From: Trichomonas tenax
Taxonomy: Eukaryota; Parabasalia; Trichomonadida; Trichomonadidae
Assembly (NCBI GenBank): GCA_023091735.1
Contig: JALKBU010000005.1
Coordinates: 62,001 to 126,000 of the forward strand
DNA: 64,000 nucleotides
Direction: 5' to 3'
A program made the position numbers and the translations under genes. Positions 20,950 to 33,090 of the stretch are shown here, piece by piece. Within the stretch, counting starts at the first letter, position 1. Every line of letters starts with the position of its first letter. Below the pieces are notes generated by a model. The model made no database searches. It saw only the letters and a program-made list of their open reading frames with translations, and had not been told where the DNA came from.

Positions 20950-21849
20950 TTATTGAGGAGACATGAGTGGGGAAAACATTTGAGAGAATTTCTTAATTGA
21001 TTCGAGTCCTTTAACTTCCTCAAATTGAAGTGGGATCTGAACGATTCTGAACTCATCTCCATAAAGCTGCTCAATGTCACCTAAATATTGTTGCTGGCTC
21101 TGGTATCTTTTCCGGCAGAATTGGCAATTTCCAACTGTATTCTTATCAATGACCTGGTTAACAACGAGGCAGTGGGTTTCGATATTCTTCTCACCAAGGA
21201 ACGTAATCAAACGCTCTGTTTCGTACAGTGGAAGGAATTCTGGAAGTAATACGCAAACAAATGTGCATTCAAGAGGATTAACTAAGCGCTTACCTGCATT
21301 TTCCAAAAGATACTTGAAGCGATCCATATGGCTACCGAAATCGAAGTCGCCACCGAGCATCGACGTGATAGAAGACATTGTAGCAGAATTGAATATTCCA
21401 AAACCATCGAGGATCGAACCAGCTGTAGATGGAAGTTGAAGAAGCTTCATTGTATGTCCTGTTGGCGCTGTATCAAAAACAACAACATCATAATCATCCT
21501 TTTCGACAGAATTGAATAATGAAACGAGGGCCTTAAATTCATCAATACCTGGGAATGATGCGAGACCTGGGAGTTTTCCTTGCTCGTCATCATCATCAAG
21601 TGAATTTGGAGCTTCCATAGCCCAAAGATTTGCAAATCCGTTAACTAATGTAGGCTCGGAAGTAAAGTGCTGTTGGAAAGAGTCACCAATATTTGAGGCT
21701 GGATCTGTTGAAACTAATAAAACACGCTTCCTCTTCCTTGAGAGGGCAACAGCGATAGAACATGATGTAGATGTCTTTCCGACACCTCCTTTGCCACCAA
21801 CAAAGATCCACTTGTAAGAAGGTGCGTCTAAATATGGAAGATCTTCCAT
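20950..21849 (-). CDS. GET3: GET3/ASNA1 ATPase for tail-anchored protein insertion
   Basis: 299 residues. Deviant Walker A GGKGGVGKT at 18-26 (signature Lys20 and Lys25), switch I STDPASNIGDSF at 47-58, switch II DTAPTGHT at 126-133, a Met-containing helical region around 155-180 for client binding, and the zinc CxxC at Cys242/Cys245 in GNCQFCRKRYQSQQQYL. These are the diagnostic features of Get3/TRC40, the cytosolic homodimer that delivers tail-anchored proteins to the ER. In switch I the common DPAHN is DPASN here. The length is slightly short of fungal Get3 (about 350). No GET1/2-like receptor was noticed in the window. Confidence 0.95.
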   Translation of the reverse strand: MEDLPYLDAPSYKWIFVGGKGGVGKTSTSCSIAVALSRKRKRVLLVSTDPASNIGDSFQQHFTSEPTLVNGFANLWAMEAPNSLDDDDEQGKLPGLASFPGIDEFKALVSLFNSVEKDDYDVVVFDTAPTGHTMKLLQLPSTAGSILDGFGIFNSATMSSITSMLGGDFDFGSHMDRFKYLLENAGKRLVNPLECTFVCVLLPEFLPLYETERLITFLGEKNIETHCLVVNQVIDKNTVGNCQFCRKRYQSQQQYLGDIEQLYGDEFRIVQIPLQFEEVKGLESIKKFSQMFSPLMSPQ

Positions 21850-22096
21850 TTATGATGATTAAAAAATATTACGTTTTCACTCTTGGAAAAAAAACACTGT
21901 TTTTATTCTTATATTTCGTTTATTTGACATAATAATCATAAAAGACAACCTAAATAATATAATTTGCACTATAATAATAGCTGATGGTAAGCAATACATA
22001 AAAATTCGGATTTGATTGATATATTTGGGTTCATTTTTATAATTTTTTTGAAAAATAAGCATTTGTATTTAAAATAACTTTAATTCAATGTTGATA

Positions 22097-23221
22097 TTAC
22101 TGTACATCTTTTTCTTCTAACCATGCCTGTGAAAGAGAACGCTGGAGGATTGCAGAACGAAGCTCAAGTTGCTTAATATCTTCCTTGAGCTTGGCTAAGG
22201 CTGTCTTAATATTCATGAGAGGAGAGTTATCTGAAACCTCTTTCTGCTTCTCATCGAGGTTCTGCTTGGTGTTATTCAATTTATCAATAACATCGTTTAA
22301 TGTTGACTTGAGGTTATTGACTGTTGTAACACGCTCGTGATATTTCTTTTCGACAGTTTCAAGCTGACGGGCTCTTTCAGCGTAATCAACAACACTTGTC
22401 TGGAAACGATTGTTAAGCATCTTTTCACGGTTTTCGATAGCATCGATAGCCTTTGTAACATCAGCACCAACCTTTGTGAGGATTGGGCTAAGTTGAGTCA
22501 TAATATCGGTAATTGTCTTTTGGTGTGTATTCATCTGTGAAAAGTGTGTTCTCCAGTCACTCTTCTCGGCAGGAATACGAATCTGTAAGCGTGGAGCAAC
22601 ACGTTCAGCTTCAGCCTTTAATTCAAGGGAATCGATAACTTTAGATTGTGCATCATTGCCAAAGTCTGTAATAATAGCATCATTTTCCTTATCCTCATCT
22701 TCCTGAACGTCAACAACGTCATCAACGATATCGTCGTCATCGTCTTCGCCTCTGACTTCGACTTCGTCGTCCTTACCACCAAGGCCGCTAACGACCCTGA
22801 ATGATGTTGGATTGAATCCCTTCTTCTTGAGTGATAAACGACATAAGGCCTCAAGAATCGAGCAGCACTGGAAGCCGTGGCCGGAAATAAGCTTAGCCGG
22901 CTGGAAGTTAATCTTGAAAGAGAGTGCAGCAAGATTGTTAATCAAATTGTCAGTTACTGTAGCTGGTTGATCGTAATCAGAGGGAGTCTCGATTGAACTT
23001 CCGAGAAATGTTTGCATCATCCAAACGCAGAGCCCTGCGAAGTAGTCAAATTGTTCTTTTGGACTTTTCTGTTGGACAGCAAAATATATTGGTGTAAGAT
23101 ACGGGAGTTTTCTTTTGATTGGATCAAATTCTGTTTCGTAATTGAGGTATTGCAAAGAATCGTAGACTTGGCGCATCGTCATAAACTCGTCGCCTGGCTT
23201 GTGCCCGTCCTTCTTCGACAT
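22097..23221 (-). CDS. IFT57: IFT57, intraflagellar transport complex B subunit
   Basis: 374 residues. The N-terminal calponin-homology-like half carries DEFMTMRQVYDSLQYLNYE, DQPATVTDNLINNLAAL, LISGHGFQCCSILEALCRLS and KKGF, all recognisable IFT57/HIPPI landmarks. An acidic linker (DDDDDIVDDVVDVQEDED) then leads to LQIRIPAEKSDWRTHFSQM, the conserved junction to the coiled-coil C-terminal half, which pairs with IFT20. It marks the organism as flagellated. The start codon is the first ATG, with a poly-T tract opposite it and an Inr-like TCAATA about 15 bases upstream. Confidence 0.93.
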   Translation of the reverse strand: MSKKDGHKPGDEFMTMRQVYDSLQYLNYETEFDPIKRKLPYLTPIYFAVQQKSPKEQFDYFAGLCVWMMQTFLGSSIETPSDYDQPATVTDNLINNLAALSFKINFQPAKLISGHGFQCCSILEALCRLSLKKKGFNPTSFRVVSGLGGKDDEVEVRGEDDDDDIVDDVVDVQEDEDKENDAIITDFGNDAQSKVIDSLELKAEAERVAPRLQIRIPAEKSDWRTHFSQMNTHQKTITDIMTQLSPILTKVGADVTKAIDAIENREKMLNNRFQTSVVDYAERARQLETVEKKYHERVTTVNNLKSTLNDVIDKLNNTKQNLDEKQKEVSDNSPLMNIKTALAKLKEDIKQLELRSAILQRSLSQAWLEEKDVQ

Positions 23222-23726
23222 TTTTTTTTATATTGAAAACGTACAAAAAAGGATTCCAATTATTTTTATATATTTATGCGACAAGTTCGTTCCCATTGCT
23301 TTAAAAGCGTTATAAATGTCAACAAATTGGACCTTCACCGTTATTAAATTTAGGTTTTTATATTCATGGCAATGGGCCTAAAAAATTATGAACCAACGAT
23401 TGTACTCCCTATGGATAATTCATTTCCCAGCGAGCACATGCTATAAAATGTTTTATATAAATGATATTTTATATCACCTAAATAATATACGGAAGAACAT
23501 CATAGTAATGAACATTTAGCTCAAAAGAAGAATTTCTATAATGTGTTGCAGTTTAGGTAACTTTGGAGATTAATAAAAAAAATATCAAAATACATTTGTG
23601 TATTAATATATTAAAGTGCTAAGAAATTATTACATAGACCAATGCATGTAATTTCTATTGTATAATTAACTATATAAGATCTCTATTAGCTAGAATAGAA
23701 TACTGACTCTTTTATTACAAACAATT
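23222..23726. other. 505-bp spacer, nothing recognised
   Basis: AT-rich DNA downstream of the TRIC-like gene and upstream of IFT57. It contains ATAAAATG/TTTTATA-type simple repeats and no ORF, RNA or repeat family that I recognise. Confidence 0.6.
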
Positions 23727-24497
23727 CTAAAATTTCTTAGTTACTGTAGAGCCATGGTAACTAATGACACTAAAGATGTATGATATGCAAGTGATATCAA
23801 TTGAAGATTCGCTTCTTAAGCCATATACTATAATATTAATGACCGATATAGCTAAATATATAATAAGAATTGCAATAGAGCATTTTTCTGTTGTGTATCC
23901 AAAGAAATGATAAACTGATTGAATTGAAAGTAGAATTGAGAAGACAAAATTGCGTAAAAATGTAATGGATGAGAAATTGCGACATTCAAATTGTGCAATA
24001 ATGAATACAAATGATTCAGAAGATGAAAATATTGTCGAAATCAGAGCAAGACCGATTATATCTACTCCATACTTTATATGACCAATCTTAAGACCTTGGT
24101 AAATGTGATGAACTTGAATAACTGAGTAAAAAACGTGTATTGTTCCAAATATAAAATCGAAGTTGAGAATTCTGAAGACAATGTCGTATGGTGATGAGTT
24201 GATTAAAAACCAAATGATTAAAAACAAAGGACAGTAGATGATATTTTCGATTAAAGGGGAATTTGTAAAACAAATAAAAGCAACTATTTCCTGACCGACG
24301 AAAATCATGAAGAATGTGAACAGCAATGATTTAAACCATGGCATACGTAACGTGTGATTGCGAAATGCGATACATGTATAAATTACTCGAAAAATAAAGA
24401 AAAATGGCCTATTAAGTTCGTCAATTAGCAAAGTAATGATTTCGGAAAGCTCGCTCCGTCCTGCACCATTTATATTTGTCCAGTTAGCGTCCGTCAT
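23727..24497 (-). CDS. TRIC-type (TMEM38) cation channel-like membrane protein
   Basis: 256 residues from the ATG at 24497; the frame opens three bases earlier at a GTG. There are about seven hydrophobic segments. The order of motifs matches TRIC channels: ...RMPWFKSLLFTFFMIFVGQEIV, NSPLIENIIYCPLFLIIWFLINSSPYDIVFRIL (TRIC: W-L-I-F-x-PLD), FDFIFGTIHVFYSVIQVHHIYQG (TRIC: E-V-x-R-x-x-K-I-x-x-G) and a short Gly-containing later helix. TRIC channels are ER/SR potassium channels that support calcium release. The Glu/Arg of the vertebrate pore helix are not obvious here, and the divergence is large. If not TRIC, it is an unknown polytopic protein. Confidence 0.75.
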   Translation of the reverse strand: MTDANWTNINGAGRSELSEIITLLIDELNRPFFFIFRVIYTCIAFRNHTLRMPWFKSLLFTFFMIFVGQEIVAFICFTNSPLIENIIYCPLFLIIWFLINSSPYDIVFRILNFDFIFGTIHVFYSVIQVHHIYQGLKIGHIKYGVDIIGLALISTIFSSSESFVFIIAQFECRNFSSITFLRNFVFSILLSIQSVYHFFGYTTEKCSIAILIIYLAISVINIIVYGLRSESSIDITCISYIFSVISYHGSTVTKKF

Positions 24498-26886: not shown

Positions 26887-27894
26887 TCAATAAAAAACAC
26901 TTCTTGTTTGATGAATTGGAATATGTTTCATTTCTTCCGTATGTTCCTTAGCATATGTCCAAAGGACAAAGTCAATTAATACAGATGTGACTTTTGGGAA
27001 TGAAATGAACTTTTTCAGCTTCTCAACAGCAGCAATTGAGCATCCTCTGATTTCACACTCTAACTCTGATCCTGGAGGGAAATGAGGACGCTCTTTCAAC
27101 TCAGTCATAAGATAGTCATCATAATGAAGCAACCTGAGATAGTTTAAGGCTTGTGGAACTCGATAATCTGCAAACATTGTTAATTTGTCTAAATCTATGA
27201 AGGAACATGCCTTAGCAACATGGTTATGATCAGCAGCGAAAGCAAAGTAGAGATCAGCTGCAAATATTTGTGCTCTCTTCAAGAAGAAGCATTGACGGCC
27301 ATTGTATTCATACTGATCATTATAGGATTCAAGGTTTGACCTAACTAACTCAGCTAAAGCGACTGCAGACTTATTGCAAGATTTAATCATCTTATAAGTG
27401 CTTCCTTCAAAGTTCTTAAGAAGATATCTGCCAGCTTCTGATATTGTCTTCTGGCGCCAATCCAAAAATGGGCATGGTGTCTCTGTATCCGAAGCAAAAA
27501 CTTTTGCCCAATCTTCAACAGTTGCCTTAGCCCAAAATGATGGCTCTAAGATCTCCTCATTCTTAAGGACCTCCTTCTTAATGGCAGCACACATTGACCA
27601 GTAGCCAGTGAATGGTTCTCCGTTGTATTTAACTGTGTATGGGGTCTGACCAGCCTCAGTCCAGAATCCGTAGTTCATAGTATCGATCAGGAACACGTAA
27701 GCAGCCTTCTTTTCAGGGTCAGAGAGCTCAGGAGGGTGTAAGGGAATTTCGGACCATGATTCTGGTCTCCAGTTCTTCACTAAAGGCTCAACAACTAACG
27801 CAGCAGCTCTAAAGTCATCATCTGAGCCAAGTTTGACGCGTTTTGCACTTTGTGAAATAAACTCCGCCGATTCAACAACACGATTTTCGATCAT
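26887..27894 (-). CDS. QNG1: Queuosine 5'-phosphate N-glycosylase (DUF2419), queuine salvage
   Basis: 335 residues, the usual length. Signature stretches are VFLIDTMNYGFWTE, GEPFTGYWSMCAAIKK, EAGRYLLKNFEGS, QCFFLKRAQIFAADLY and FADYRVPQALNYL (the conserved Asp-Tyr-Arg-Val-Pro-Gln), and the C-terminal RGCSIAAVEKL and HQTRSVFY. The family releases queuine from queuosine-5'-phosphate so it can be put into tRNA wobble positions. Protists cannot make queuine and take it from bacteria or diet, which suits a mucosal parasite. The start is 44 bp from the divergent ATPase-like gene. Confidence 0.93.
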   Translation of the reverse strand: MIENRVVESAEFISQSAKRVKLGSDDDFRAAALVVEPLVKNWRPESWSEIPLHPPELSDPEKKAAYVFLIDTMNYGFWTEAGQTPYTVKYNGEPFTGYWSMCAAIKKEVLKNEEILEPSFWAKATVEDWAKVFASDTETPCPFLDWRQKTISEAGRYLLKNFEGSTYKMIKSCNKSAVALAELVRSNLESYNDQYEYNGRQCFFLKRAQIFAADLYFAFAADHNHVAKACSFIDLDKLTMFADYRVPQALNYLRLLHYDDYLMTELKERPHFPPGSELECEIRGCSIAAVEKLKKFISFPKVTSVLIDFVLWTYAKEHTEEMKHIPIHQTRSVFY

Positions 27895-27938: not shown

Positions 27939-30900
27939 ATGGATACTGTTGTTTTTTCTGCACATGAAAGCGGCGAACATACACAAAAAGGCAAGAAAAA
28001 CAACCCACATAATAATGGATCCAGGTGGTATCATAAATTACCAACAAGTCTTATTTTAACTTTCCGAAGACTTTCAATCTGGTATTATTTGATTATTTTC
28101 TTTATTCAATGCTTTATAGAGACTTCAATGAGATTCACGATGACTCTTGTCCCGCTGATTATCACGATTTTCGGATCAATTATTATTGATTTAGTTCATT
28201 TTAAGAGAAGGAAGCGAAATATCGAAAGAATTAATAAGCTGAAATGCACAGTATACAGAGGAAATGACTGGGTTGACCTCACGTGGGGCGAAATACAGAG
28301 AGGTGATATCATCAAGATGCGAAATAATGATGTAGCACCTGCAGATCTCGTCCTTTTATTCACATCTGATGGACAGCCTATTTCTGTTGAAACACACATC
28401 ATTGATGGTTCAACACAATTAAGTCCAAGATATGGCCCAGAACTCTCTGAGTTACTGCATGAAAATAGCTTGCTCAGCTCAACATTTACAATCAGCGACA
28501 TTTCTAGAACTATGTTTGTTGAACCAAATACTGCAAAAACACAAGTCACTTCAAAATATAATTTCAATGCTAAAATTGATCTTGGCACAAAGCAGTATGA
28601 GCTCACAAACAAGAATTTCATTGAAAGATATTCTTATACATATCACAGTGGATACATTCTTGCTGGTGTTATCTTCACAGGTGAGGACTGCTGGACTGTT
28701 CGCAATACACCATATATGTCAAAGTTTTCAATGCTCGAGAATAGTCTTAACGATTCAAATTTAATGTTGATTGGATTTTCTATTTTGATTGCTATCATTG
28801 CATCTCTATTATCTCTTATTTATATTCCACAATCTAAGACATGGCCATTCCAATCTGATTTGAAAACTTCTGACTATTTCCTTGGAAATCTTTGGAATTA
28901 CTTAATATTCCTTGTTCCAATTTCACCACTTGAAATATACCCAATTCTTGATCTTATATTTGTTATCAATTCACACTTTATAATGAAATCAACTAAGAAA
29001 TCAACAATCACAAACTCTCGCATTATTGATGAGATGTCACATGTCGATGCAATTATAACTTCGAAATCAATGCTTTTAGAACACAAGCCAACACTCAAAA
29101 GAATTTATCTCAATGGTAAATCTTATGGTATGGATATTACAACTCGCCAGTTAAGCCAGAATATCGAAAATGATCTCCTTCAAAACAGAACAATGATGAG
29201 TCAGTTCTACGACTCCTCACTTAGACCAGATGAGTCAAATCACATGTTCTTCCTTTCTCTTACATTGTGTCACTCTGCATCACTTGTTGGCACATCAGCT
29301 TCATTCAATTATATCTCTAGATTCCCTGATGATGAGCATCTCTTAAGACTTGCGGCGATAAACGGTTACATTTTGATGGGCCGTAACGAAAACGAGTCCA
29401 TGGTTAGAATCAATGGAAAAACACGCCGTTTCAAGACAAAGCGCATTATCCACTCATCACTAAGACATCCACGCATTTCAATCATCGTTGAAGATGAAGA
29501 GGGAACAATATTACTTTTCACACGTGGTGTATACAAGACAATGATTAATATTGTTGACGATAACGAAAAATGCGTTCCAATTTATGATGCTTATCATGAA
29601 GAAGGTCTCCATGTCGAAACAGCAAGCTACCAATACCTCACTCCTGCCCAATATCAACAATTCGAGGAAAGAATGTCTGAATTTGGTGAAGGTAATATGG
29701 ATTTCGAGTTCTCTGTTGTTGAGTCCCTCGAAAAGCATTCTGTTTTTCTTGCTATGCTTGGTTTCGAAGATCAGCCACGCGATGGAGCACTTCTCTTCCT
29801 TGCCCGCGCAAAGAGTGGCTGCAATCAGATCATTTTGTCATCTCAGTCAAAGGGTACTTCATTGATTATTACTGGCATTGCTTTAGGTCTTATTAACCTC
29901 GGACCAGTTGTTGGAACAATCAAAGGCCCAATTATCGAAGATGTCGAAATCTCTATTTCGTACGTTCTTGAACAAGAGAATTATGATGTTCTCATCATTT
30001 CTGGTGCTTCAATTGAGTTCCTTATTCAAAGCGAATATGCATTTGAAGTTGCTCAGTTGATCAAACGCACGAAAGTTATCATTCTCCAGCGCGCTGATCA
30101 ACTTCAGGCTCTTCAGTTTATTCAATATTTGCAAGATGTTACTAATCAATGTGTCCTTGCAGTTGGACACTCAATTTATGATTCTGTTTATATGTCTGGC
30201 GCCAATGTCTCTTGCGCTGTTGCAGCCAATGATATTCAGCCATGTTCTGTCACAGCTGATATTGTTGTCAACAATTTCGAAGATCTATGCGATGTTGTAT
30301 TCATTCATGGCGTTTGGCTCCGTGAAAGAGTCAGAGGTTTTGTCAATTACATTATTCCAAGAAACATCGTTGTTGCACTTCTACCTGTTTGGTATGGCAT
30401 TTTCTGCTGTTTCTCTGGTACCCCAGTTTTCCGTGAAGGTGACTATTTCGCAATGATGTACTTCTTCACACTTGTTCCTATATTGTCTCGTGCAATTTTC
30501 AACACGAAAGAACACATGTTTACTCTTCTTTCTAATCCATCTTTCTACAAGGATGATAATGAACCAATATTATCAAAACGCAGAATCATGACATCATTTT
30601 TAGGATCAGTTCTAATATCAGCTCTTCTCCTGTTTGTTGCTCGTTTCTCAACTGATAATATTGGTACTTTCAGATCCACAATTTCATTGCCTCACTTTTC
30701 ACATGTATTGATGGCATGCATTGTGTTTGGATGCTTGGGATTTGTTCTCCCAACATTCGACACATGGAATCTCATCCATCATTTCTTGGTCTGGGGAAGC
30801 CAAATCATCTTCTACACGACTTATAGACTGGCAACTGAGTTTGAAATTGTTGGAAGAATCCGTGGTGTGACTCATGTTGTCTATTCTCGTACAGAGTCGA

Positions 30901-31013
30901 TCTTATTGATGATTATTTCTCTTTTCTTAGGAATGTTCCTTTCATCTTCTCTAGTTATCTTTAAGAAGGTTATCGCAAAGAGAAAGGAGTATTCCACAAA
31001 GAGAACAATGTAA
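27939..31013 (+). CDS. P4-ATPase (flippase)-like protein lacking catalytic motifs: probable pseudoenzyme
   Basis: 1024 residues with the P4-ATPase layout: N-terminal membrane pair (about 40-85), actuator part WGEIQRGDIIKMRNNDVAPADLVLL, a second pair (about 273-340) with VPISPLEIYPIL, a large cytosolic region, and six C-terminal helices (about 780-1015) opening with VHGVWLRERVRG-like FIHGVWLRERVRGFV and FCCFSGTPVF, as in P4 enzymes. Every catalytic motif is changed: DGET is DGST (156-159); the phosphorylation motif SDKTGT is TSKSML (Asp replaced by Ser375); TGDK is SSQSK; GDGANDV is GHSIYDS (743-749). It cannot form the aspartyl phosphate. The reading frame is intact and codon use normal, so it looks maintained. 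Membrane protein; a scaffold or regulatory role is inference. Confidence 0.88.
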   Translation: MDTVVFSAHESGEHTQKGKKNNPHNNGSRWYHKLPTSLILTFRRLSIWYYLIIFFIQCFIETSMRFTMTLVPLIITIFGSIIIDLVHFKRRKRNIERINKLKCTVYRGNDWVDLTWGEIQRGDIIKMRNNDVAPADLVLLFTSDGQPISVETHIIDGSTQLSPRYGPELSELLHENSLLSSTFTISDISRTMFVEPNTAKTQVTSKYNFNAKIDLGTKQYELTNKNFIERYSYTYHSGYILAGVIFTGEDCWTVRNTPYMSKFSMLENSLNDSNLMLIGFSILIAIIASLLSLIYIPQSKTWPFQSDLKTSDYFLGNLWNYLIFLVPISPLEIYPILDLIFVINSHFIMKSTKKSTITNSRIIDEMSHVDAIITSKSMLLEHKPTLKRIYLNGKSYGMDITTRQLSQNIENDLLQNRTMMSQFYDSSLRPDESNHMFFLSLTLCHSASLVGTSASFNYISRFPDDEHLLRLAAINGYILMGRNENESMVRINGKTRRFKTKRIIHSSLRHPRISIIVEDEEGTILLFTRGVYKTMINIVDDNEKCVPIYDAYHEEGLHVETASYQYLTPAQYQQFEERMSEFGEGNMDFEFSVVESLEKHSVFLAMLGFEDQPRDGALLFLARAKSGCNQIILSSQSKGTSLIITGIALGLINLGPVVGTIKGPIIEDVEISISYVLEQENYDVLIISGASIEFLIQSEYAFEVAQLIKRTKVIILQRADQLQALQFIQYLQDVTNQCVLAVGHSIYDSVYMSGANVSCAVAANDIQPCSVTADIVVNNFEDLCDVVFIHGVWLRERVRGFVNYIIPRNIVVALLPVWYGIFCCFSGTPVFREGDYFAMMYFFTLVPILSRAIFNTKEHMFTLLSNPSFYKDDNEPILSKRRIMTSFLGSVLISALLLFVARFSTDNIGTFRSTISLPHFSHVLMACIVFGCLGFVLPTFDTWNLIHHFLVWGSQIIFYTTYRLATEFEIVGRIRGVTHVVYSRTESILLMIISLFLGMFLSSSLVIFKKVIAKRKEYSTKRTM

Positions 31014-31539: not shown

Positions 31540-33090
31540 ATGCAGAAGAAATCAGTTTTAACATTAGCCAAGGAAAAACCTAAAATATTGAAGCCAAGCT
31601 TTTCACCTAGAGCCCAGTCAGCAACTTCAAAGTCCGGAAGCTCGCTTTCAAGCAGACAAAAAGATCCATTGAAAGATTTGAGCAATTTAAAGCCAAATGA
31701 GAAACAGACCAAGTTATCGTTTCCACCAGCAAAGCTATTGAGATCAGTGAAAGAATCAGAAATCAAAGATTTATTTATCGCAAAATGCAAAACTTCACAA
31801 CAAAATGTTGATTTAAGTAGAGCAGACCTTGCAATATATGCTACAGGAAAAGAAGGATATTTATTCGACATATTAGAATCATTGCAGGATAAAAATTTCA
31901 AATTTCCGCAGTTTCGAGAAGTATATGAGGCAGTATTTGCGTTAGTAGCTTTCCACATTTTCAGAACCGTGAATACAATTCCTGATTTATGGAAATCAGC
32001 TCATGATGATTATTATTTTGAAATGGACACAATTACAGACCCACAGTGGCCTCACTGTGTTATTATATACGATACAGCAATTGCTTTATTCAAGAGAAGT
32101 GATTTTGACATCAGCTTATGCAAATTTTTAACGACAGATTTGCTAAAACTTGTGGTTTACTTAATGAGGACACCGAACAAGGATGAGCAGCGAAAGTTAG
32201 CTGAATTATATGTTGCTATGGTTCCAAAAATGGGCGAATTTCGATCTTTTGCACAAAATGTTACAGGTTCCGCTCTTGCGCGAATTGCTGTAAATGATGA
32301 AAATTTCATAGCTGCAAAGCCACTCTTACAAATAATTAGATCACATGCAGAAGGTTATCACATTCCTTTGAAGAAAATTCATCGCAGTTTTTATTTAGAT
32401 GTTATTCTTCCACTTCACAAACATGAACATTCACACTATTTCTGGGCAGATCTTATTGCTGCAGTCACTGCATTCTTGGAGAAAGATGCATCATTGACAC
32501 AACCTACATATGAGTTTATTGTTAGTGTCTGGCCAAGACTTTGCACAACAAAGCAGTTAGATTTCATCGATGAAATTGGAATTCTTGCAAGCTTTGTTCC
32601 TGACGATGAAACATCGAACATCACAAGAATTCTTCTTCCTCAATTCTGCAGAACAATTGTTGGCGTCAACACTTGGTCATCAAAGCGTGCACTTGCTCTT
32701 TTTGATATTAATGACTTTGTGTGGCTGATGACTGAAGTTCCCGGCGATGTATATCCATCTCTCATTCCTTCTCTGTATGAGTGCGCAAAAATACACTGGG
32801 ATGATGATTCTAGATCACTGGCTCTAGCTTGCCTCAATGTTCTCCGTGATAATAATAGAAAGATATTCTCAATCGTAGGAAAAGCAATGAAAACTCTTGA
32901 GAATCAGCGTATGCTCAATGACATCCAGCGTGCGCTCAAGTGGAAAGAACTAATTGATAAATTTGAAGTCTCCAAACGCAAAAAGCTTCAAAAATATGAG
33001 ATTTTATCTTATATATTTGATGGATGCGAAAGTTTAGCACCAGTCTTTCAAAAATTGAAGAAGGAAACTGCTAATGAAACAAAGGCCTGA
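31540..33090 (+). CDS. PP2A regulatory subunit B56 (B')
   Basis: 516 residues. A Ser/Lys-rich N-terminus (about 1-65) precedes HEAT-like repeats typical of B56: FREVYEAVFALVAFHIFRTV, WPHCVIIYDTAIALFKRSDFD, VVYLMRTPNKDEQRKLAELY, SALARIAVNDENF, HRSFYLDVILPLHKHEHSHYFWADLIAAV, FLEKDASLTQPTYEFIVSVWP and the C-terminal WKELIDKFEVSKRKK. B56 directs PP2A to LxxIxE-bearing substrates, e.g. in mitosis. Length is typical. It ends in TGA, which shows that TGA is used as a normal stop here. Confidence 0.95.
   Translation: MQKKSVLTLAKEKPKILKPSFSPRAQSATSKSGSSLSSRQKDPLKDLSNLKPNEKQTKLSFPPAKLLRSVKESEIKDLFIAKCKTSQQNVDLSRADLAIYATGKEGYLFDILESLQDKNFKFPQFREVYEAVFALVAFHIFRTVNTIPDLWKSAHDDYYFEMDTITDPQWPHCVIIYDTAIALFKRSDFDISLCKFLTTDLLKLVVYLMRTPNKDEQRKLAELYVAMVPKMGEFRSFAQNVTGSALARIAVNDENFIAAKPLLQIIRSHAEGYHIPLKKIHRSFYLDVILPLHKHEHSHYFWADLIAAVTAFLEKDASLTQPTYEFIVSVWPRLCTTKQLDFIDEIGILASFVPDDETSNITRILLPQFCRTIVGVNTWSSKRALALFDINDFVWLMTEVPGDVYPSLIPSLYECAKIHWDDDSRSLALACLNVLRDNNRKIFSIVGKAMKTLENQRMLNDIQRALKWKELIDKFEVSKRKKLQKYEILSYIFDGCESLAPVFQKLKKETANETKA

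Follow-up and report, generated by a model that had tools for sequence, protein, structure and literature searches.

An apparently parabasalid clade of P4-ATPase-like proteins, with five members in Trichomonas tenax, lacks the phosphorylated aspartate

The closest known case that we found to the gene described here is guanylyl cyclase beta (GC-beta) of Plasmodium, in which a dead P4-ATPase (flippase) module is fused to a cyclase within a CDC50-bound protein. In P. falciparum, the P4-ATPase domain of this protein has been called degenerated (PMC6592433); in P. yoelii, GC-beta is a binding partner of CDC50A and undergoes degradation when CDC50A is missing (PMC9426505). PMC7858053 likewise refers to a CDC50 with a stabilising effect. 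The gene in question is a 1024-codon ORF (open reading frame) in a 64,000-nt stretch of Trichomonas tenax DNA (assembly GCA_023091735.1, contig JALKBU010000005.1, positions 62,001 to 126,000, forward strand; hereafter the window). Its product, the window protein, resembles GC-beta in being a degenerate P4 module. However, it belongs to a multi-gene family of stand-alone proteins with fixed replacements of their own and without a cyclase: the Pfam scan of the window protein returned no guanylyl cyclase family, and the ORF stops at 1024 aa.

Compared with the described P4-ATPase flippases (Drs2p, ATP8A1 and ATP8B1; PF16212, TIGR01652), the window protein lacks the phosphorylated Asp, the Glu of DGET, the Asp of TGD, the first Asp of GDG, the ATP contacts and the PISL motif. 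A first-pass annotation, made from the sequence alone, had stated that dead P4-ATPases are not well described. This calls for qualification, given the degenerated GC-beta domain (PMC6592433). No stand-alone family of P4 pseudo-pumps was found among the open-access matches listed in our literature search, a result with subscription papers outside its scope and no proof of absence. A proteomic study of T. gallinae lists a flippase-family protein (PMC6812828), which could not be matched to the clade described below.

Loss of catalytic residues in a single clade

The relatives of the window protein form a clade of 32 proteins, collected by protein searches and a search of the T. tenax genome; all matches above a wide score gap were included, regardless of their motifs. 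The gap separated E values of 1.4e-128 (last relative) and 2.0e-34 (next match) in the first protein search, 5.6e-172 and 2.8e-74 in the protein search that found TVAG_480150, and 5.2e-140 and 4.9e-51 in the search of the organism's own genome. Each protein search scored just under 8,000 candidates, and TVAG_480150 was missed by two and found by one; because the candidate set was limited, the absence of a species from the match lists is uninformative. Five intact pseudo-P4 paralogues (the window gene and L002–L005) lie in the T. tenax genome beside 11 P4-ATPase genes with DKTGT, and the remaining 27 members come from other sources. The clade is apparently parabasalid, judging by the two members with organism names, TVAG_480150 (P0055) of Trichomonas vaginalis and P0013 of Histomonas meleagridis. 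Both share the clade's losses and are known here by their database names, 'hypothetical protein' and 'phospholipid-transporting ATPase IB isoform X2', the second of which claims an activity that the residues do not support. P0013 is 812 aa long and lacks aligned transmembrane segments (TM) 5 to 10.

The 32 members fall into 21 clusters at 60 % identity, and they are of single origin. In a 55-row tree, all 32 lie on one side of a single branch (support 100), and the clade still forms one group, again with a support of 100, in a 54-row tree built without nine motif stretches and without the long-branched L014. A careful 26-row tree (of 56 rows), which includes 12 of the 32, gave a clade support of 100/100. 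As the trees are unrooted, the clade may be nested within the P4-ATPases or be sister to those sampled. Three of the five T. tenax paralogues have close counterparts outside the genome (L002 and P0009, 84 % identity; L003 and P0010, 78 %; L004 and P0056, 80 %), suggesting that separate paralogues are kept beyond T. tenax.

For the catalytic residues, the 32 members were compared with 23 ordinary P4-ATPases, namely the 11 genes of the T. tenax genome and 12 chosen homologues. The row for L002 is without its first Met, and P0067, a 509-aa fragment with a differently altered motif, was excluded from the panel counts and trees. The phosphorylated Asp is present in none of the 32 members and in all 23 ordinary P4-ATPases, and the window protein contains no DKTGT at any other place; an intact one elsewhere would, according to the first-pass annotation, have refuted its proposal. 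The Asp of TGD is likewise missing from the whole clade (0/32 versus 23/23), while the Glu of DGET and the first Asp of GDG are each present in one member (P0054 and P0049, respectively; 23/23 for both in the ordinary set). The ATP contacts follow the same pattern. In ATP binding, an N-domain Phe holds the nucleotide, while the Asp and Thr of DKTGT, together with a P-domain Asn and Asp, hold the phosphate (PMC11460456); the Phe (Ser506 in the window protein) and the Lys of KGAD each remain in P0051 only, versus 23/23 ordinary P4-ATPases. An earlier panel of 17 clade members and 19 ordinary P4-ATPases, an overlapping earlier set, gave the same picture.

Every catalytic motif had been described as replaced in the first-pass annotation. 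The phosphorylated Asp, the DGET Glu, the TGD Asp and the first GDG Asp are indeed gone, but the statement goes too far, as the Asp-Gly of DGET, Lys376 of the former DKTGT, Ser635 (for Thr), Arg512, Gly743 and Asp748 remain. Across the clade, the Asp and Gly of DGET, which bridge the A and P domains in E2P (PMC11460456), are kept in 31/32 and 32/32 members while the Glu is lost; all 32 also have N-domain Arg512 and Asp748, the final Asp of GDGxND.

Several members differ in ways of their own. P0054, the sole member with the A-domain Glu (NGE), is long-branched and perhaps the least changed of the clade. P0045, P0046 and P0048 carry ~260–275 extra A-domain residues after the position of window-protein residue ~215, and a Pfam scan of P0045 found no known domain in this insert. 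In the P4-like fragment P0067, DKTGT reads DPGAL, possibly marking another altered lineage. A 183-bp stretch (L040; G000:C1068 3606-3788), ~1.1 kb downstream of L002, is 97.8 % identical to coding nt 663–845 of that gene and is a small gene-fragment duplication of it.

Selection, the old pocket and the membrane site

The five T. tenax paralogues are under purifying selection. In 10/10 pairs, differences are fewest at the second codon position (0.35–0.47), intermediate at the first (0.49–0.59) and most numerous at the third (0.62–0.70), and the order is identical in 15/15 pairs among six ordinary P4 paralogues. Codon-position divergence was used because synonymous divergence (dS) is saturated between the paralogues, so that no ratio of non-synonymous to synonymous divergence (dN/dS) is usable: by NG86, dS was undefined for 5/10 pairs and ranged from 2.3 to 6.0 for the rest. 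The proposal of selection on a non-catalytic P4-like protein is thus supported by relatives with the same loss (the phosphorylated Asp is missing from 32/32), by their single origin and by the codon-position divergence; the functions suggested for it in the first-pass annotation (partner or chaperone of active flippases, lipid sensor, scaffold) are candidates.

Constraint is unevenly spread along the protein. As the clade and the ordinary set differ in breadth, the mean pairwise identities (clade versus ordinary set) can be read only as contrasts between one domain and another. They are 41 % versus 33 % for the A domain, 38 % versus 30 % for the N domain, 34 % versus 35 % for TM1–2, 34 % versus 27 % for TM3–4, 36 % versus 33 % for TM5–6 and 26 % versus 21 % for TM7–10; in the P domain, they are 38 % versus 44 % (residues 353–395) and 38 % versus 42 % (residues 601–780). 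Within residues 601–780, the columns conserved at ≥90 % number 36 in the ordinary set and nine in the clade. Of the parts compared (A, N, P and membrane), the P domain is therefore the one in which constraint has clearly been lost.

Within this relaxed domain, the old phosphorylation pocket is the best-conserved spot, indicating that it was changed and then largely fixed rather than left to drift. At the 90 % threshold, 6/13 pocket positions and 7/210 other P-domain positions are conserved (Fisher p 1.5e-5), compared with 6/13 and 23/210 at 80 % (p 0.003) and 8/13 and 38/210 at 70 % (p 0.001), all of these contrasts being inflated by the relatedness of the sequences.

New residues are also fixed in the membrane site. 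The first-pass annotation had listed VPISP among the retained fold motifs, but this is not PISL: the conserved TM4 Pro is Pro330, giving PLEI, so that the PISL substrate motif itself is replaced. Pro330 is present in 29/32 members, with Leu-Glu-Leu as the commonest continuation (mostly PLEL), and an additional TM4 Pro, Pro327, is likewise found in 29/32. A TM6 Asn that is present in 17/23 ordinary P4-ATPases occurs in 1/32 clade rows (one row is gapped there). In active flippases, the Ile of PISL lies at the central hydrophobic gate, and a TM5 Lys belongs to a hydrogen-bond network that positions TM4 (PMC11460456); this Lys presumably corresponds to Arg808 of the window protein. On sequence grounds, the TM4 Glu and the TM5 Arg may plausibly form a pair.

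Structure prediction and comparison with P4-ATPases, a check suggested in the first-pass annotation, give a flippase fold for the window protein, the same as for the active paralogue L007. The AlphaFold2 model resembles E2P structures (root-mean-square deviation (rmsd) of 3.1 to 6roh), and in it Ser375, Ser635 and His744 are each located where a P-domain strand reaches its C-terminal end, or just past that point. The idea of a protein frozen in E2P was dropped, as 6roh is likewise the best fit (rmsd 2.6) for the model of active L007, which was predicted from the same set of 43 proteins after re-alignment with L007 in first place.

The gene and its surroundings

The gene coincides exactly with the plus-strand ORF in the standard code, and the 1024-codon open frame reported earlier was confirmed, its chance probability at the base composition of the window being 3e-33. 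Codon use is normal, as had also been claimed: the mean log odds of this ORF (0.202) exceed those of 11 other window genes (0.060–0.192) and of four alternative frames of this DNA (-0.053 to 0.032). The overall P4 fold and the C-terminal membrane domain are present, the latter being the sole Pfam match above cut-off. The NCBIfam flippase model TIGR01652 scored below its cut-off of 431.25 bits, while the ordinary paralogue L007, used as a control, reached 1075.9. All 20 distinct solved sequences in the PDB that matched at E ≤0.001 are P4-ATPases by name. The coordinates of the features are collected in Table 1.

Table 1. Features of the pseudo-P4-ATPase gene in window coordinates, with their occurrence in the clade and in ordinary P4-ATPases (P4s)
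Feature	Residues	Position	Strand	Basis or occurrence
Whole gene, pseudo-P4-ATPase	1024 aa	27939..31013	+	ORF, AlphaFold2, PDB matches, TIGR01652 259.5 bits
TM1 Gln57	57	28107..28109	+	Gln in 28/32 clade, 13/23 ordinary P4s
A-domain loop DGST, replacing DGET; Asp-Gly kept, Ser158 for Glu	156-159	28404..28415	+	Clade Ser 30, Glu 1, Lys 1 of 32
TM4 PISPLEI, PxxPLEL for PISL; Glu332 at Ser position	327-333	28917..28937	+	Clade Glu 29, Gln 2, Asp 1 of 32; ordinary Ser 22, Thr 1 of 23
TSKSML, replacing (S)DKTGT; Ser375 at phosphorylated Asp	374-379	29058..29075	+	Clade Ser 30, Thr 1, Pro 1 of 32
N-domain HPR, replacing RKR	510-512	29466..29474	+	Alignment
RGVY, replacing KGAD; Arg529 at Lys	529-532	29523..29534	+	Clade Arg 31, Lys 1 of 32
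SQSK, replacing TGDK; Ser637 at Asp, Ser635 at Thr	635-638	29841..29852	+	Clade Asp 0/32; Thr place Ser 29, Thr 3
Ala724 at P-domain Lys of 'QK'	724	30108..30110	+	Lys in 0/32 clade, 23/23 ordinary P4s
GHSIYD, replacing GDGxND; Gly743 and Asp748 kept, His744 and Tyr747 new	743-748	30165..30182	+	Clade His 25/32 at first Asp
PF16212, phospholipid-ATPase C-terminal membrane domain	772-1012	30252..30974	+	Pfam 102.5 bits, cut-off 28.3
TM5 Arg808-Asn809, basic residue kept	808-809	30360..30365	+	Lys/Arg in 30/31 clade, one row gapped

Upstream lies a divergent gene for a queuosine salvage protein (26887-27894, minus strand), with 44 bp between the two start codons, and a PP2A B56 subunit is encoded at 31540-33090 (plus strand); neither neighbour shows an evident functional link to the pseudo-P4 gene. 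Elsewhere in the window, the minus strand at 20950-24497 holds, close to one another, IFT57, an ArsA-type ATPase and a channel of TRIC-like type that falls slightly short of the Pfam cut-off. Matches to a TCAYW-type initiator were scattered upstream of 28 window ORFs and were uninformative.

Candidate roles of the pseudo-P4 proteins

At least 14 CDC50 matches were found in the T. tenax genome; the frame is open in 13 of them and interrupted by a TGA in one (C1394:13405-14043). The 12 whose longest frame is of CDC50 length share ≤52 % identity with one another and are therefore not allelic copies; as regards the others in this comparison, the longest frame of L021 is not its CDC50 frame, and L045 is cut by the TGA. 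Four of the 11 ordinary P4-ATPases (L011, L013, L015 and L016) cluster with sequences that we take to be of the Neo1/ATP9 type or have GDGGND in common with them, and P4-ATPases of that type are not known to need CDC50. By gene counts, CDC50 subunits may outnumber the active P4-ATPases that need them, which would leave room for pseudo-pumps as partners.

We are nearly certain that the window protein is a pseudoenzyme and that it belongs to a family of such proteins. It retains all the domains of a flippase (membrane, A, N and P) but cannot form the aspartyl-phosphate, so it should not pump. Instead, it would act as a CDC50-associated membrane receptor or scaffold, holding a lipid head group or other ligand at the remodelled acidic TM4–TM5 site, in the altered phosphorylation pocket or in both, with the conserved A and N domains as a docking platform. 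That an ancient parabasalid pseudo-P4 clade acts as such a CDC50-associated, ligand-holding receptor or scaffold is the reading that we prefer, although we judge it evenly poised between right and wrong. More doubtful is a bolder version, in which a P4-fold class stopped pumping once, early, and both sites (the acidic PxxPLEL facing a basic TM5 residue, and the Ser/Lys/Ser/His/Asp pocket) were rebuilt and fixed, yielding a new lipid or ligand receptor or a passive path for lipids or ions.

A non-catalytic partner is a common fate of pseudoenzymes, and the pseudo-pumps might be regulators that compete for, chaperone or retain CDC50, or that pair with active P4-ATPases, thereby setting their traffic and amount. 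The predicted fold, the same as that of an active P4-ATPase of this genome, and the presence of at least 14 CDC50 matches beside 11 active-type P4-ATPases are consistent with such a role; however, a pure decoy would have no need of new residues fixed in its membrane site and its former pocket, nor does it sit easily with an old clade divided into several lineages, and we consider it unlikely. The membrane residues themselves (TM4 Glu 29/32, Pro327 29/32, TM5 Lys/Arg 30/31, TM6 Asn 1/32 versus 17/23) would suit a passive transporter, in which a remodelled TM4–TM5 path, containing a buried Glu and, in TM5, a basic residue, scrambles lipids or conducts ions or protons without ATP coupling. This is less probable again, since the conservation of the A and N domains exceeds what a mere channel needs and the Glu and Arg might pair with each other, closing the path.

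The pocket residues could alternatively belong to a converted enzyme, with Ser375, His744 and Asp748 as a new catalytic or metal site. Ser, His and Asp occur jointly in 24/32 members, and the model places Ser375, Ser635 and His744 at or just after its strand ends, yet a catalytic triad should be invariant and this one is missing from 8/32 (Ser-Ser-Asp in L002, P0009 and TVAG_480150, other combinations in the remaining five), making a universal new active site improbable and this explanation very hard to credit. Finally, changed catalytic motifs and the missed TIGR01652 cut-off could reflect a decaying pseudogene, an assembly error or a pump that is still active. Against this stand five intact paralogues in one genome, 27 outside relatives without the phosphorylated Asp, normal codon use, selection, and the joint loss of the nucleophile, the Mg-site Asp and the ATP contacts, which leave it next to no credibility.

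Several observations weigh against the receptor or scaffold reading. Some catalytic residues persist: Lys376 is common (Lys 29/32, Arg 3/32), as is Asp748, and the Arg of LRTL (His558 in the window protein) and the Asn of GDGxND are kept in 7/32 and 2/32 members, respectively. Without the three residues shared with active P4-ATPases, the pocket test, likewise inflated by sequence relatedness, weakens to 3/10 versus 7/210 at 90 % (p 0.007), and the pocket residues may be kept only for the stability of the fold. Since active L007 is predicted alike, the E2P-like model does not speak for a frozen state, and the case for pairing of CDC50 with pseudo-pumps is one of gene counts. In GC-alpha, the sister case to GC-beta, the catalytic Asp proved irreplaceable (PMC7858053), so CDC50-bound protist P4 modules are not as a rule non-catalytic. 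The analysis shows the residue losses, the single origin, the selection, the predicted fold and the new residues fixed in membrane site and pocket; we infer the absence of ATPase activity, the partnership with CDC50, the binding of a ligand and the receptor or scaffold role.

The family is old and well kept, and its members have probably taken on new work as sensors, scaffolds or passive channels. For them, names like 'phospholipid-transporting ATPase' in the databases are misleading. P-type ATPases are textbook pumps, and a multi-paralogue clade of this kind would show a selected, ATP-free use of the flippase fold and would offer a natural system for separating lipid or CDC50 binding from pumping. 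On the bolder version above, a P4-fold class would have outlived its ATPase activity.

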